From Halobacteriales archaeon (GTDB lineage: Archaea > Thermoplasmatota > E2 > JACPAO01 > JAHFTW01), in contig JAIVGU010000246.1 of assembly GCA_020201445.1 (NCBI GenBank), forward strand, positions 1-5,061: 5,061 nt of DNA, in the 5' to 3' direction. The notes beneath the pieces were generated by a model, which did no database searches, was not told the origin of the DNA, and saw only the letters and a program-made list of their open reading frames with translations. The translations under genes were made by a program, and so were the position numbers. Each line of letters begins with the position of its first letter. Positions within the stretch are counted from its first letter, which is position 1. Shown piece by piece: positions 910 to 5,061 of the stretch.

Positions 910-1410
910 GTGCGCGCAGGCGTGCAGGCCGACCAGGACCGCTACGCCCCCCACTCCATCTGCTTCGGCTGCGGCCCCGCCAACGCCAAGGGCCTCCAGA
1001 TCAAGAGCCACTGGGAGGGCGACCCCGCGCAGGTGGGCGAGGGCGGGGGCCGGTTCGTGATGGAGTACACGCCGCAGCCGCACCACCAGGCGTTCCCCGG
1101 CGTCGTCAACGGCGGCATCCTCGGCACGCTGCTGGATTGCCACAGCAACTGGTGCGCCGCGACCGGCCTGATGCAAAAGTGGGGCTGGGACGCGCCGCAG
1201 TGCACCGTCACCGCCGACTTCCATGTCCGGCTGAAGCGCCCCACGCCCGCGGGCAAGCCGCTGCGGCTGGAGGCGCGCATCGAGAGCATTTCCGAAGACC
1301 GCGCCACCGTCCACTGCGCCGTCCACTGCGACGGCAAGGTGACGGCGACCTGCGACGGGACCTTCGTGACGGTCAAGGAAGGGCACCCCGCCTGGCACCG
1401 GTGGGGTTAG
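910..1410 (+). CDS. Hotdog-fold acyl-CoA thioesterase, PaaI-like (4HBT family)
   Basis: Small cytoplasmic protein of 166 residues, the usual size of a single-hotdog thioesterase. Family knowledge says such enzymes hydrolyse acyl-CoA thioesters as dimers or tetramers. Seen: an N-terminal 'CFGCGPANAKGL' (18-29), common at the start of a PaaI-like subgroup; 'FPGVVNGGILGTLLDCHSNW' (62-81), which is the hotdog central helix with NGG in place of the usual HGG and Asp76 as the likely catalytic acid; then the alternating beta strands 'TVTADFHVRLKRPTP', 'LRLEARIESIS', 'RATVHCAVHCDGKVTAT'. The GTG at 910 is chosen because homology begins just after it; a second GTG at 922 is possible and the frame is open upstream. 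Its stop overlaps the CPBP start, so the two are probably co-transcribed. The acyl substrate cannot be told from the sequence. Confidence 0.85.
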   Translation: MRAGVQADQDRYAPHSICFGCGPANAKGLQIKSHWEGDPAQVGEGGGRFVMEYTPQPHHQAFPGVVNGGILGTLLDCHSNWCAATGLMQKWGWDAPQCTVTADFHVRLKRPTPAGKPLRLEARIESISEDRATVHCAVHCDGKVTATCDGTFVTVKEGHPAWHRWG

Positions 1411-2183
1411 TGGAGGGCGCCGCGGGCGTGCCCTTCGACCCCGCGACGGGCGACTGGGTGCAGGCGGCCGCTCCCGCCCCCGCAGCGGTGCCGCCCGACG
1501 CCCCCCGCCACGGCGTCGGCCCGACCCTGTGGACCGTCCTGCTCGGCATCGACCTCGCCCTGCTCGGCCTGCCGTTCGCCGTCTCCGTCTACTTCACCCT
1601 CACGGGGCAGGTTGCGAGCCTGTCCGGCCCTATCGACCGCACGGCGCTGTGGGGGCAGGTCGCCTTCAGCCTCGCGACCCTCGGCCTCATCCCGCTCGCC
1701 TGGGTGGTGGGGACCCGGGTGGACCCCTGGAGGGGCGCCGTCCGCTACCTCCACCTGGAGCGCCCCATCCCCGGCCTGCTTTGGGGGGTGGCGTGGGGGG
1801 TGGCGACACTCGCAGCGCTCATCTTCCTCGGCCTCCTGCTGCGCGCCCTCCACTACGAGCCCGCGAACAAGCAGGCGGACGCCATCCTGGACGCGATGAC
1901 CCCGACGCTGGCCGTCGCGCTCGCCTTCAGCGCCGCCGTGGGGGAGGAGATCTTCTTCCGCGGCCTCCTGCAGCGCAGGCTCGGGGTGTGGGGCCAGGCC
2001 GCGCTGTTCGGGCTGTTCCACCTCAGCTACGGCACGCCTCTCCAGGTCATCCTGCCTGCCCTTCTCGGCCTGCTGTACGGCTGGCTCATCAAGCGCGGCG
2101 CGCCGCTGTGGACGACGATGGCGGCGCACTTCGTGTTCGACTACACCCAGCTCAGCTCGCCGTTCTGGCTGCCGCCGACCTGA
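1410..2183 (+). CDS. CPBP-family intramembrane metalloprotease (Rce1/Abi type)
   Basis: Multi-pass membrane protein of 257 residues. All three CPBP signature motifs are present in order: EExxxR as 'EEIFFR' (E179, E180, R184), FxxxH as 'FGLFH' (F200-H204), and HxxxD/N as 'HFVFD' (H240, D244). In the family these build the active site inside the membrane; members cleave prenylated CaaX proteins (Rce1) or act in bacteriocin immunity and sorting. Hydrophobic segments lie at about 40-62, 80-101, 122-145, 165-178, 195-205, 209-226 and 232-247. An Ala/Pro-rich soluble stretch (19-36) precedes the first. The GTG at 1410 shares its G with the upstream TAG stop (TAGTG), typical of translational coupling; GTG at 1428 is an alternative. 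The same frame is open far upstream, but that part lies opposite mutY and across the thioesterase gene and is not part of this protein. The substrate is unknown. Confidence 0.9.
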   Translation: MEGAAGVPFDPATGDWVQAAAPAPAAVPPDAPRHGVGPTLWTVLLGIDLALLGLPFAVSVYFTLTGQVASLSGPIDRTALWGQVAFSLATLGLIPLAWVVGTRVDPWRGAVRYLHLERPIPGLLWGVAWGVATLAALIFLGLLLRALHYEPANKQADAILDAMTPTLAVALAFSAAVGEEIFFRGLLQRRLGVWGQAALFGLFHLSYGTPLQVILPALLGLLYGWLIKRGAPLWTTMAAHFVFDYTQLSSPFWLPPT

Positions 2184-2191
2184 CGCCCAAA

Positions 2192-2239
2192 CCACGGATT
2201 CCACGGGTTCCATGTCGCACGCGGTTTGGAACACGGTGG
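2192..2239. repeat. Degenerate 9-base-period repeat with an imperfect inverted partner
   Basis: Directly after the CPBP stop come three 9-base units, CCACGGATT, CCACGGGTT and a decayed CCATGTCGC (2192-2218). CCACGGGTTCCA (2201-2212) is answered by an imperfect inverted copy TGGAACACGGTGG (2227-2239). The unit resembles the CACGAATT unit of the perfect palindrome that follows, with one or two substitutions. It looks like an older, decayed relative of that repeat. Confidence 0.55.
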
Positions 2240-2271: not shown

Positions 2272-2347
2272 GGGAACCACGAATTTCACGAATTGCACGA
2301 AAAACGACCCCTTTGGTTTCGTGCAATTCGTGAAATTCGTGGTTCCC
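2272..2347. repeat. Perfect 31-bp inverted repeat with 14-base loop (MITE/REP-like)
   Basis: The left arm 2272-2302 and right arm 2317-2347 are exact reverse complements, 31 of 31 bases, around the loop AACGACCCCTTTGG (2303-2316). Each arm is internally periodic: CCACGAATT, TCACGAATT, GCACGAAAA in the left arm, that is, CACGAA every 9 bases. The arms are 14/31 G+C, well below the surrounding genes. The stem is far longer than a transcription terminator needs, and no T-run follows it, although it would stop or stabilise the CPBP transcript. No target-site duplication is obvious. Translating it gives only repetitive strings such as 'HEFHELHE' or 'FVQFVKFV', so it is not coding. Confidence 0.9.
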
Positions 2348-2374
2348 TCGTAGGTAGTGAGGATAAATGGGCAA

Positions 2375-2389
2375 CGCCACACGGTGGCG
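2375..2389. repeat. Small hairpin upstream of the recombinase promoter
   Basis: CGCCAC (2375-2380) and GTGGCG (2384-2389) form a perfect 6-bp inverted repeat with a 3-base loop. It ends just before the TATA-like box of the recombinase gene, where a repressor or the recombinase itself could bind. Function is inferred from position only. Confidence 0.35.
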
Positions 2390-2392
2390 CGG

Positions 2393-2402
2393 CCTTAAGT
2401 AT
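2393..2402 (+). promoter_or_regulatory. Candidate archaeal TATA-like box for the recombinase gene
   Basis: CCTTAAGTAT is an A/T-rich island in G/C-rich sequence. Its centre lies about 29 bases before the ATG at 2427, the spacing expected for an archaeal TATA box with a transcript that starts at or next to the start codon. This supports 2427 over the in-frame ATG at 2367, which lies upstream of the box. A purine-rich BRE is not clear. Confidence 0.4.
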
Positions 2403-2426
2403 GCTGCCTGTCCAAGGAATATCAAG

Positions 2427-3329
2427 ATGCCGAAACGAGTCAAGGGCGAGATGAAGTGGCACCCGTTGTTGCTTTCCAACCCGCAGGTTGCCAGTTGGTA
2501 CGAGAACGTCGCGCGCCGCGACCGCAACGTGGCCGATGTCTGGCTCAGAAACATTGCGCGCAACCTGGACCTGGCCTTGGGCAAACGCCCCGCCGACTTG
2601 CTAGCGATGAGCCAACCCGAACTGGAAGAGGCCGTCTCCGCGTGCATCGACGACATGTTCGACCGCGAACTCCTCGGAAGCACAGTGCAGAGCTTCATGA
2701 CGGCCCTGTCGAGCTTCCTGGCTTGGCACGACCGGGAAATCAAGCGCAGCAACAGCATCCCCGGCGCCCGCGACAACCCCAACGCCGAAGACGAGACCAT
2801 GCACGAACCCGCAACCCTGCGCAAGGTCCTGGCAACCGCCGAGATTCGCACCCGCGCCATGCTGCTCGTCATGGCCCACGGGGGACAACGCCCCCAAGTG
2901 ATCGGGCGGGTGGATGGCAGCGACGGATTGCGCCTCAGGGACCTGGTCGAGATGACCATCGAGAAAGACGACGTCGCCTTCACGAAGGTTCCCACCCGCA
3001 TCGAGGTCAGCAAGACCTTGAGCAAGAACAAGAAAAGGTTCCTGTTTTTCCTCAGCCAGGAGGGCTGCGAGGCCATCCGCGCCTACTTGCGCACCCGCAT
3101 CCAAGCCGGCGAAGAGCTCACCCCCGACAGCCCGCTGTTTCGGCCCTACGGCGGCGCGCCGCGCTTCCTGATGCGCACCAACATTGGGGACGCCATCCGG
3201 CGCGCCATGCGCGACGCCGGCGTCCAAGGCCGCCCCTACTCCTGGCGCGCCTACTACGCCCACCACTGCCAATTCGCAGAAGCTCATGCACCACGCACCA
3301 CCTTGTTCAGGCCGCGCGGTGGAATGTAG
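2427..3329 (+). CDS. Archaeal-type tyrosine recombinase/integrase, C-terminally truncated
   Basis: Site-specific DNA recombinase of 300 residues. Residues about 1-110 form the helical core-binding (SAM-like) domain, including 'VADVWLRNIARNLDLALG'. The catalytic domain follows: the first catalytic Arg is R155 in 'MAHGGQRPQVIG', a Lys-rich hairpin spans K196-K203, and box II is 'YSWRAYYA' with R274. The YxxR form instead of HxxR is seen in archaeal integrases. Recognisable sequence fades after 'QFAEAHA' (about residue 284), and the frame ends at 3327-3329 with no GH box and no catalytic Tyr, so the product is probably inactive. The ATG at 2427 has AAGGA 8 bases upstream and a TATA-like box at the right distance; ATG 2367 is an alternative. 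Third positions are less G/C-rich than in the left-hand genes, suggesting transfer. It could be called a pseudogene. Confidence 0.8.
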   Translation: MPKRVKGEMKWHPLLLSNPQVASWYENVARRDRNVADVWLRNIARNLDLALGKRPADLLAMSQPELEEAVSACIDDMFDRELLGSTVQSFMTALSSFLAWHDREIKRSNSIPGARDNPNAEDETMHEPATLRKVLATAEIRTRAMLLVMAHGGQRPQVIGRVDGSDGLRLRDLVEMTIEKDDVAFTKVPTRIEVSKTLSKNKKRFLFFLSQEGCEAIRAYLRTRIQAGEELTPDSPLFRPYGGAPRFLMRTNIGDAIRRAMRDAGVQGRPYSWRAYYAHHCQFAEAHAPRTTLFRPRGGM

Positions 3330-3928: not shown

Positions 3929-5061
3929 CTACGTCGACTGGCCGCAAAGGCGTCGCAGGTGGTAGCGAACGGTGCTTTCGGCCAACCCCGTGCGGTGCGC
4001 CAGGTCAGCCACGCTCGCCGTGGGATTCTCCTCGCGCGCCGTGGCGACGGCTTGGTAGCCAGGCGACTGCATGGAGCGTGGAAGCGCGGTGCGCGGCTGG
4101 CCGGGCAGGTAGTGGCAGACGTAGCCGCCGCGGCGTTCGCTGCGCACCGCGCCGACGGCTCGGAGTTTTCCCAGGTGGTAGCGCAGCGTTCCCAGGCCCA
4201 TGCCGGACTGCAGGGCCAGCTCGCGCAAGTGGATGCCGGGGCTGTGAACAATGACTTCCAGGATGCGCTGGCGGCGCGGGTGGTTGGGAACCTGGGTCTC
4301 GTGGATGCGCGAGAACAAGCTCAGCGCACCGGTCTTCAGGCTGGGCCAGAACCAGTACACAAACGCTGCAACGAGACTTGCCAGGCCGGTTGCGGCCGCA
4401 GCCCCACCCAGGCGCCAGGCCCACACCGTTCCAGGCTGCGTCGGGCCGATGGAGAACGCCAGCGGGACCAACGTGTCGTTCTTGGGCTTCAAGTCAGGGC
4501 CATAGCGGTCCTGCACATCATCCGCCCTCCACCCAATTAGGGTTCCCACTGCGTTAACATAGAGTGACCGGCGCAGGTCGTTGCCTTCTTGGCCGCTGCC
4601 GAAGAAGATGTCGCTCTCGCGCCACTGCGAAGTGGAGTTCTCGTGGGTCTCACCGACCGTTAGATAGGGCCCGTCGTTGTGGTAGCAGCTGACTGCACAA
4701 TGCGGCGAGATGCCCCAAGCGTTGGCGACACGTCCGGTCAGGGCATGGTAGAGCACCTCGAGCGAGGCAACGCTGGGCACCGAGGGCAGTTGGTCCGGGC
4801 GCCGAAACATGGGAACAGCCCCCTCCCAGGGGTCGTCGTCCAGGTACTGGTAATGCGGCACGGGGTCGTCGGGAACCTGGATGCCGGTGCGGTAGTGAAT
4901 CATCTCGGCACTCGGGCCGCCAACGGGGCCAGTGCTGCGGTGCGTCATGAAGATCCGCGGCCGGCCGTCCCCATCGCTGAGAACCCAATCCCACATGGCC
5001 CCGCGCGCGCCACCATCGTCGTGGAAGGAACGGAAGCTGGCTTCCTGCACGACGGCGCCGG
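3929..5061 (-). CDS. Membrane-anchored regulator with two C-terminal winged-helix domains, N-terminus cut
   Basis: 376 residues are visible; the frame is open to the right edge, so the N-terminus, perhaps with a signal peptide, is missing. Numbered from the GTG codon at 5050: residues 1-212 form an unrecognised, probably extracytoplasmic domain with a CX3C pair ('HCAVSC', C118/C122) and two N-glycosylation sequons (NST at 138, NDT at 191). One membrane helix spans about 214-235 ('GLASLVAAFVYWFW'). On the cytoplasmic side is a first winged helix (about 256-316: 'RQRILEVIVHSPGIHLREL', 'GLGTLRYHLGKLRAVGAV') and a second (about 330-370: 'GLAESTVRYHLRRL'). This layout suggests a one-component sensor that detects something outside and acts on DNA inside; such proteins are frequent in Thermoplasmatota and other archaea. 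Neither ligand nor target is predictable. The GTG at 5050 could be an internal codon rather than the start. The small frame-broken gene follows on the same strand. Confidence 0.8.
   Translation of the reverse strand, partial: GAVVQEASFRSFHDDGGARGAMWDWVLSDGDGRPRIFMTHRSTGPVGGPSAEMIHYRTGIQVPDDPVPHYQYLDDDPWEGAVPMFRRPDQLPSVPSVASLEVLYHALTGRVANAWGISPHCAVSCYHNDGPYLTVGETHENSTSQWRESDIFFGSGQEGNDLRRSLYVNAVGTLIGWRADDVQDRYGPDLKPKNDTLVPLAFSIGPTQPGTVWAWRLGGAAAATGLASLVAAFVYWFWPSLKTGALSLFSRIHETQVPNHPRRQRILEVIVHSPGIHLRELALQSGMGLGTLRYHLGKLRAVGAVRSERRGGYVCHYLPGQPRTALPRSMQSPGYQAVATAREENPTASVADLAHRTGLAESTVRYHLRRLCGQST

Follow-up and report, generated by a model that had tools for sequence, protein, structure and literature searches.

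A perfect palindrome with nine-base arm units in a contig assigned to an archaeon and its probable kinship with palindromic elements around GxxExxY genes

The palindrome and its immediate setting

The window, which is the whole stretch of 5,061 nucleotides analysed here, contains an exact inverted repeat between a protease-like gene and a weakly recombinase-like reading frame. The two arms (2272-2302 and 2317-2347) are complementary in the window sequence at 31 of 31 positions and enclose a loop of 14 bases. The features are as follows:

1410-2183, plus strand: CPBP/Rce1-like intramembrane protease (PF02517, 7.3e-15), upstream neighbour outside the element
2193-2209, plus strand: second array, CACGGATTCCACGGGTT, of the same form as the palindrome units, found by scanning with a loosened unit pattern, about 70 bases upstream of the palindrome
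2272-2302, plus strand: left arm, GGGAAC followed by three units (direct reading and repeat search)
2277-2280, plus strand: outer CCAC, with its mirror image GTGG at 2339-2342
2278-2286, 2287-2295, and 2296-2302, plus strand: the left-arm units CACGAATTT, CACGAATTG, and CACGAAA
2303-2316, no strand: loop of 14 bases that matches no unit (direct reading)
2317-2347, minus strand: right arm, which repeats the left arm exactly in inverted orientation
2367-3329, plus strand: weakly tyrosine-recombinase-like ORF of 320 amino acids, downstream neighbour outside the element

The first-pass annotation had described the exact arms, the 14-base loop, and a CACGAA motif every nine bases, and had remarked that the arms stay open in several frames. 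Direct reading, the repeat search, and the comparison of the arms agree with this description: CACGAA starts at 2278, 2287, and 2296 and is mirrored in the right arm, with three units per arm in nine-base steps, and the arms fall within several overlapping short frames. The repeat search also reports a wider pair (2265-2302 versus 2317-2354, 92% over 38 nucleotides, spacer 14). The repeat unit is CACGAATT, and its general form is CRCRRAK with a period of 8-10 bases. A 24-base unit pattern has two matches in the window and none in 200 dinucleotide shuffles of it, even with three mismatches. As RNA, 2255-2365 folds with -67.6 kcal/mol (z -11.5), and 0 of 200 shuffles fold as well. The second array is possibly a decayed element, and its surroundings (2186-2245) fold no better than shuffles.

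The downstream ORF scores 18.6 bits against Phage_integrase, under the cut-off of 27.1, and 27.9 bits against XerA_Arch, for which the cut-off is 220. Because the loop has just 14 bases and a local profile search found no GxxExxY gene in the window, the palindrome is called the gene-less form here. Likewise, the window contains no Rfam match and neither a four-helix ORF nor a 23S rRNA gene location. With regard to the GTAG or CGTC tag of REP elements, GTAGGTAG at 2349-2356, a few bases beyond the stem, is taken as chance. Elsewhere in the window, 3929-5050 on the minus strand encodes an HTH protein with a single relative other than itself in a set of 5.8 billion proteins, of which 7996 candidates were scored.

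Relatives in other genomes and the genes between their arms

CACGAATT palindromes occur in many distant bacteria, often in many copies per genome. The pattern for palindromes, two units per arm with a gap of 3-33 bases, was matched in at least 119 stretches of GTDB genomes and in three viral contigs, and the 24-base unit pattern is present in 23 IMG/VR stretches. The titles of the matching records name Bacteroidota, Chloroflexota, Acidobacteria and Aminicenantes, Verrucomicrobia, Planctomycetes, Desulfobacteraceae, and Nitrospinia, so that by our own assignment from these titles the GTDB stretches span about seven phyla. A tandem pair of units was found in all 16 whole genomes searched, which already matched the palindrome pattern, with 1-163 matches each, where strands are summed and longer arrays count more than once; a reversed control pattern had no match in any of the 16. 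Among 148 evenly drawn Bacteroidota genomes, 11 have at least one tandem pair, including the genome at the centre of the search, G001. In the copies compared by eye, the loops look alike within a genome and different between genomes. One match is titled as a Bifidobacterium breve MAG (L074); it has a GC content of 0.39 and a Flavobacterium-like palindrome and, judged against the usual GC content of B. breve, is probably mis-binned. In four IMG/VR loci (L012, L022, L004, and L013) inverted arrays of CACGAATT or CACGGATT surround varied phage ORFs, and several other viral loci have a single array directly upstream of a start codon (both by eye).

The window palindrome has what was used to define the family, namely at least two inverted CRCRRAK units per arm at a spacing of 8-10 bases. 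In addition, both arms have a C ahead of their outermost CAC in 83 of the 120 gene-less palindromes, as they do in the window. The family seldom has perfect arms: the outer 30 bases are perfect in 4 of 106 palindromes by a measure that scores short-armed copies down. Within called ORFs lie 5 of 120 palindromes (L024-L142), and the other 115 are intergenic. The palindromes avoid divergent gaps. Gaps of 40-600 bases with a palindrome comprise 21 convergent, 49 co-directed, and 3 divergent ones, those without a palindrome 57, 161, and 52 (convergent versus divergent p 0.0013, convergent versus the rest p 0.21, with ORFs called by a simple script and copies within one genome not independent). The 135 ORFs beside arrays and palindromes have no gene family in common (25 commonest of 142 families), and thus most palindrome copies stand without a GxxExxY gene.

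As possible partners, three families were considered in the repeat-bearing genomes: Y1_Tnp (RAYT), PF13366 (GxxExxY, PDDEXK_3), and PF05635 (four-helix bundle, 23S rRNA IVP). By eye, many PF13366 and PF05635 genes lie between inverted short tandem repeats. For the statistics, flanks of 250 bases were scored, arms were counted if they lay beyond all 60 shuffles, and loci cut by contig ends were excluded. Inverted arms were found at 39 of 45 GxxExxY (of 54 loci), 54 of 61 four-helix (of 64), and 11 of 20 Y1 genes (of 30), and in 5 of 106 random windows (of 119 loci); inverted flanks are thus frequent at Y1 loci, and tandem units are absent there, since a tandem period with zp above 4 was present in 15/45, 54/61, 0/20, and 5/106, respectively. 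The best period of the 19 GxxExxY loci with zp above 3 is 9 bases in nine, 8 in five, 10 in three, and 12 in two, and that of the 57 four-helix loci is 7 in 38, 14 in eight, 8 in six, 9 in four, and 6 in one. At least two CRCRRAK motifs are in the arms of 26/45 GxxExxY, 1/61 four-helix, and 0/20 Y1 loci, and 1/106 random windows. Searching for CACGAATT-type arrays near the genes with up to three mismatches does not by itself separate the families (Y1 2/30, GxxExxY 4/30, four-helix 5/30 loci).

Because the motif had been derived from these same loci and the presence of the repeat had guided the choice of their genomes, the best-scoring loci of evenly drawn genomes were tested again. In Bacteroidota, 24 of 30 GxxExxY genes have arms and 21 of 30 the CRCRRAK motif, versus 0/60 and 0/60 in control windows of the same loci. 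The Chloroflexota genes have arms in 23 of 26 (of 29 loci), the motif in 16 of 26, and a period in 17, which is 9 bases in 11 (controls: arms 3/52, motif 1/52, period 3/52). Four-helix genes of Bacteroidota have arms in 17 of 26 (of 28 loci), the motif in 0 of 26, and a period in 20, which is 7 bases in 16 (controls 0/52, 0/52, and 3/52). Unit length and motif therefore follow the enclosed gene, and the unit in the window is of the GxxExxY kind. Around the four-helix genes outside rRNA (L214-L243, L268-L301, and L485-L512) the inverted arms consist of 7-base tandem units, and the sequence of these units varies by locus.

Arms of two to four tandem CRCRRAK units of 8-10 bases, in inverted orientation, bracket GxxExxY genes, and sometimes the units are the identical CACGAATT. 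This is the case in loci whose titles name Acidobacteria (L193), Verrucomicrobia (L258), and Chloroflexi and Anaerolineae (L249 and L068), and a Flavobacterium gene (L261) has near-identical CACGAATT units with letters changed. A complete gene-less palindrome directly adjoins the GxxExxY gene in L258, L068, and L079. Array-bearing Bacteroidota genomes encode GxxExxY more often than others (9/10 versus 65/137, p 0.017, with G001 excluded and kinship uncorrected). No GxxExxY match was found in three genomes, as MAGs perhaps incomplete, with 163 (G004), 62 (G015), and one (G026) unit-pair matches. One GxxExxY query has 2481 relatives. Double GxxExxY proteins (298 and 260 amino acids), in which a single open frame has two PDDEXK_3 matches, are encoded on contig 335 of G002 (L199 and L212) and contig 178 of G008 (L211).

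Variation at Flavobacterium sites

Flavobacterium species differ at the site of L261, where some have the GxxExxY element and others a shrunken form of it or none. For this comparison the gene together with its flanks served as the query against 150 genomes of the genus, and 50 loci were read (30 listed and 20 chosen for split matches). Among the 48 loci with both flanks, in which counts are not frequencies given this choice, 25 contain GxxExxY, whose arms look by eye like the CACGAATT, CACAGATT, or CACAAAGG type, nine have 40-48 bases between the chosen cut points, and six have 20 bases, reading TAATG as if stop and start overlapped (read from the sequence alone). L397 has kept the arms and a fragment of the GxxExxY gene, and L396 and L395 retain less. 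Two species (L333 and L394) have an unrelated palindrome of CTGCAAGGTTTTCAAAACCTTG type without a known partner, and L399, L400, and L413 have 1.9 kb instead, without a GxxExxY match. In L399, 527-2323 contains an AAA-ATPase-like ORF (weakly PtuA-like, far below the cut-off) and a second ORF. In the 24 full alleles own arm pairs outscore swapped ones, with a mean that none of 5000 permutations attains, and the own partner is the best one in just 5 of 24. This excess could come from joint rewriting of the arms, from shared ancestry, or from the element having been replaced.

A second site lies between convergent genes (both flanks in 27 of 30 loci) and has CACGAATT palindromes, CACAGATT palindromes, and nested ones. 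Hairpins of other, 7-base-like units were also seen by eye between the same genes. In L303, too, a CACAGATT-type palindrome lies in the loop of a CACGAATT palindrome. The nested composite, about 150 bases long, was retrieved from 12 genomes at one other place in each, and some of these places are the same site in related species; its ends read GCCACAG on the left in 11 of 12 and CTGTGGC on the right in 9 of 12. A target duplication was seen neither in the alleles of the L261 site nor at the 12 places of the composite. In L420 and L427-L429, arms of the 7-base type surround what appears by eye to be an ordinary terminator hairpin and no gene.

The first-pass annotation had the impression that similar strings occur in other environmental genomes, had supposed a mobile palindrome family, and had named the lack of any relative as an argument against it. 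Relatives exist, and both the strings and the palindromes recur in distant bacteria. It had suggested counting copies, comparing loops, and looking for empty sites, and the relatives often have many copies, loops that by eye differ between genomes, and empty sites. Mobility is supported for the relatives by dispersal in many copies, nesting, and empty sites, and no event of movement itself was seen. That arms of this kind bracket GxxExxY genes had gone unnoticed in the annotation.

Interpretation and comparison with known systems

The window palindrome probably belongs, as a gene-less and MITE-like form, to a family of small palindromic elements with arms of the GxxExxY type. Its placement in this family is suggested by the unit, the period, the terminal CCAC, and the palindromic form. 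The GxxExxY protein is presumed from its sequence to be a PD-(D/E)XK nuclease, and it may be the protein that moves the element. Two repeat-rich genomes without a GxxExxY match (G004 and G015) and the failure to see any target duplication speak against this. The nuclease would recognise the arm units and cut at the CCAC ends or at an extruded hairpin, and new copies of the element would be placed between genes, at a distance from promoters. Forms without the gene could derive from internal deletion and be mobilised in trans. Copying of one arm from the other through the hairpin would keep the arms identical. The perfect arms of the window copy fit either a recent arrival or a recent correction.

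Several other explanations have to be weighed against this. It is unlikely that the palindrome is a host hairpin kept for a role in RNA or transcription, such as termination or the protection of mRNA ends, as REP sequences are in such use; this also holds if it moved in the past and is under selection now. The very stable fold, the intergenic position of nearly all palindromes with few in divergent gaps, and the differently built hairpins at one convergent site across Flavobacterium species would suit such a role. However, a plain terminator, which the first-pass annotation had set against mobility, does not agree with the sequence: a scan of 2150-2450 that counts loops of 3-8 bases found no terminator-like site, the stem is followed by CTCGTAGG and not by a T-run, and an A-run follows the stem in most of the dispersed Flavobacterium copies seen. 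A terminator also needs neither units shared across phyla nor the bracketing of a nuclease gene. Quite improbable is the origin of the palindromes by mutation alone, with slippage generating the tandem units and template switching at the hairpin the perfect arms, and with no mobile element. The arms do match within alleles, one site shows turnover of loops and units, and some 7-base arms seem by eye to surround an ordinary terminator, but mutation alone leaves unexplained the same 8-base unit in distant phyla, the tie to one gene family, and the presence and absence of whole elements.

It is very improbable that the palindrome is of the REP/REPIN type and owes its movement to a RAYT (Y1) transposase. 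This explanation has in its favour the palindromic, intergenic, and multi-copy nature of the repeats and Y1 matches in 14 of the 16 repeat-bearing genomes, and is already weakened by the scarcity of arrays at Y1 loci (0/30 with up to two mismatches, 2/30 with three), by Y1 flanks without tandem units, and by the lack of GTAG enrichment (9/106 within 16 bases of the stem versus 14/106 at 100 bases). A role of the palindrome in binding or recombination by the downstream recombinase-like ORF, 20 bases away, is just as hard to credit: adjacency and the weak recombinase matches speak for it, but the 25 commonest of the 142 families beside arrays and palindromes elsewhere include no recombinase.

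Extending the proposed GxxExxY-type family to the four-helix genes, we tentatively consider an unnamed class of mobile DNA, in which inverted short tandem arrays surround one small gene. Units of 8-10 bases with the CRCRRAK form would pair with the GxxExxY PD-(D/E)XK nuclease, and 7-base units of varied sequence with the four-helix-bundle (S23-like) protein. The nuclease would read the units and move gene-bearing as well as gene-less forms, and hairpin-templated copying would rewrite both arms together. Such a class would occupy intergenic sites of many bacterial phyla and of phage contigs and, through the window, perhaps reach archaea. If this is true, GxxExxY proteins, presumed nucleases for which no published function was found, would gain a role, and there would be an explanation for a repeat that is strewn across many genomes and is a source of false small ORFs. 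The matching of unit length (7 or about 9 bases) to the enclosed gene is a sharp and testable rule.

Among the matches listed from the open PMC literature, no paper was found on the function or setting of GxxExxY, and none on an association of such arms with GxxExxY. In the excerpts of PMC8934634 GxxExxY is named once, as an annotation near a CRISPR reverse transcriptase. REP/REPIN sequences with RAYT are described in excerpts of PMC2817692, PMC3116915, and PMC3733652 as short intergenic palindromes in many copies, for which a gene-bearing partner has been proposed, and in these respects the family is alike. However, it has no GTAG tag, no adjoining Y1 gene, arms of 9-base tandem units, a partner nuclease of another fold, and one unit common to several phyla. 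The GTAG and CGTC repeats in the excerpts of PMC3733652 differ from the window unit. The intervening sequences of 23S rRNA with an S23 or four-helix ORF are inverted-repeat stems around one small ORF, whose origin is called unclear in the excerpts of PMC4990558, where proposals of a mobile origin are cited. The arms bear on the open question of what these sequences are, because their four-helix genes elsewhere, outside rRNA, sit in the same kind of inverted tandem-unit arms. Yet the four-helix arms have 7-base units, and the window has neither such an ORF nor an Rfam match. The GxxExxY loci (TIGR04256/PF13366) have arms of the window's unit kind and differ by the gene itself. Bacterial MITEs are gene-less inverted-repeat elements with ends like those of gene-bearing elements. 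Unlike these, the elements here have arms of tandem units, no known transposase, and no target duplication seen. Like a MITE, the window palindrome is gene-less, and it may share its ends with a gene-bearing element, in that the same unit flanks GxxExxY genes in other genomes. Many dispersed copies and empty sites were seen in relatives elsewhere.
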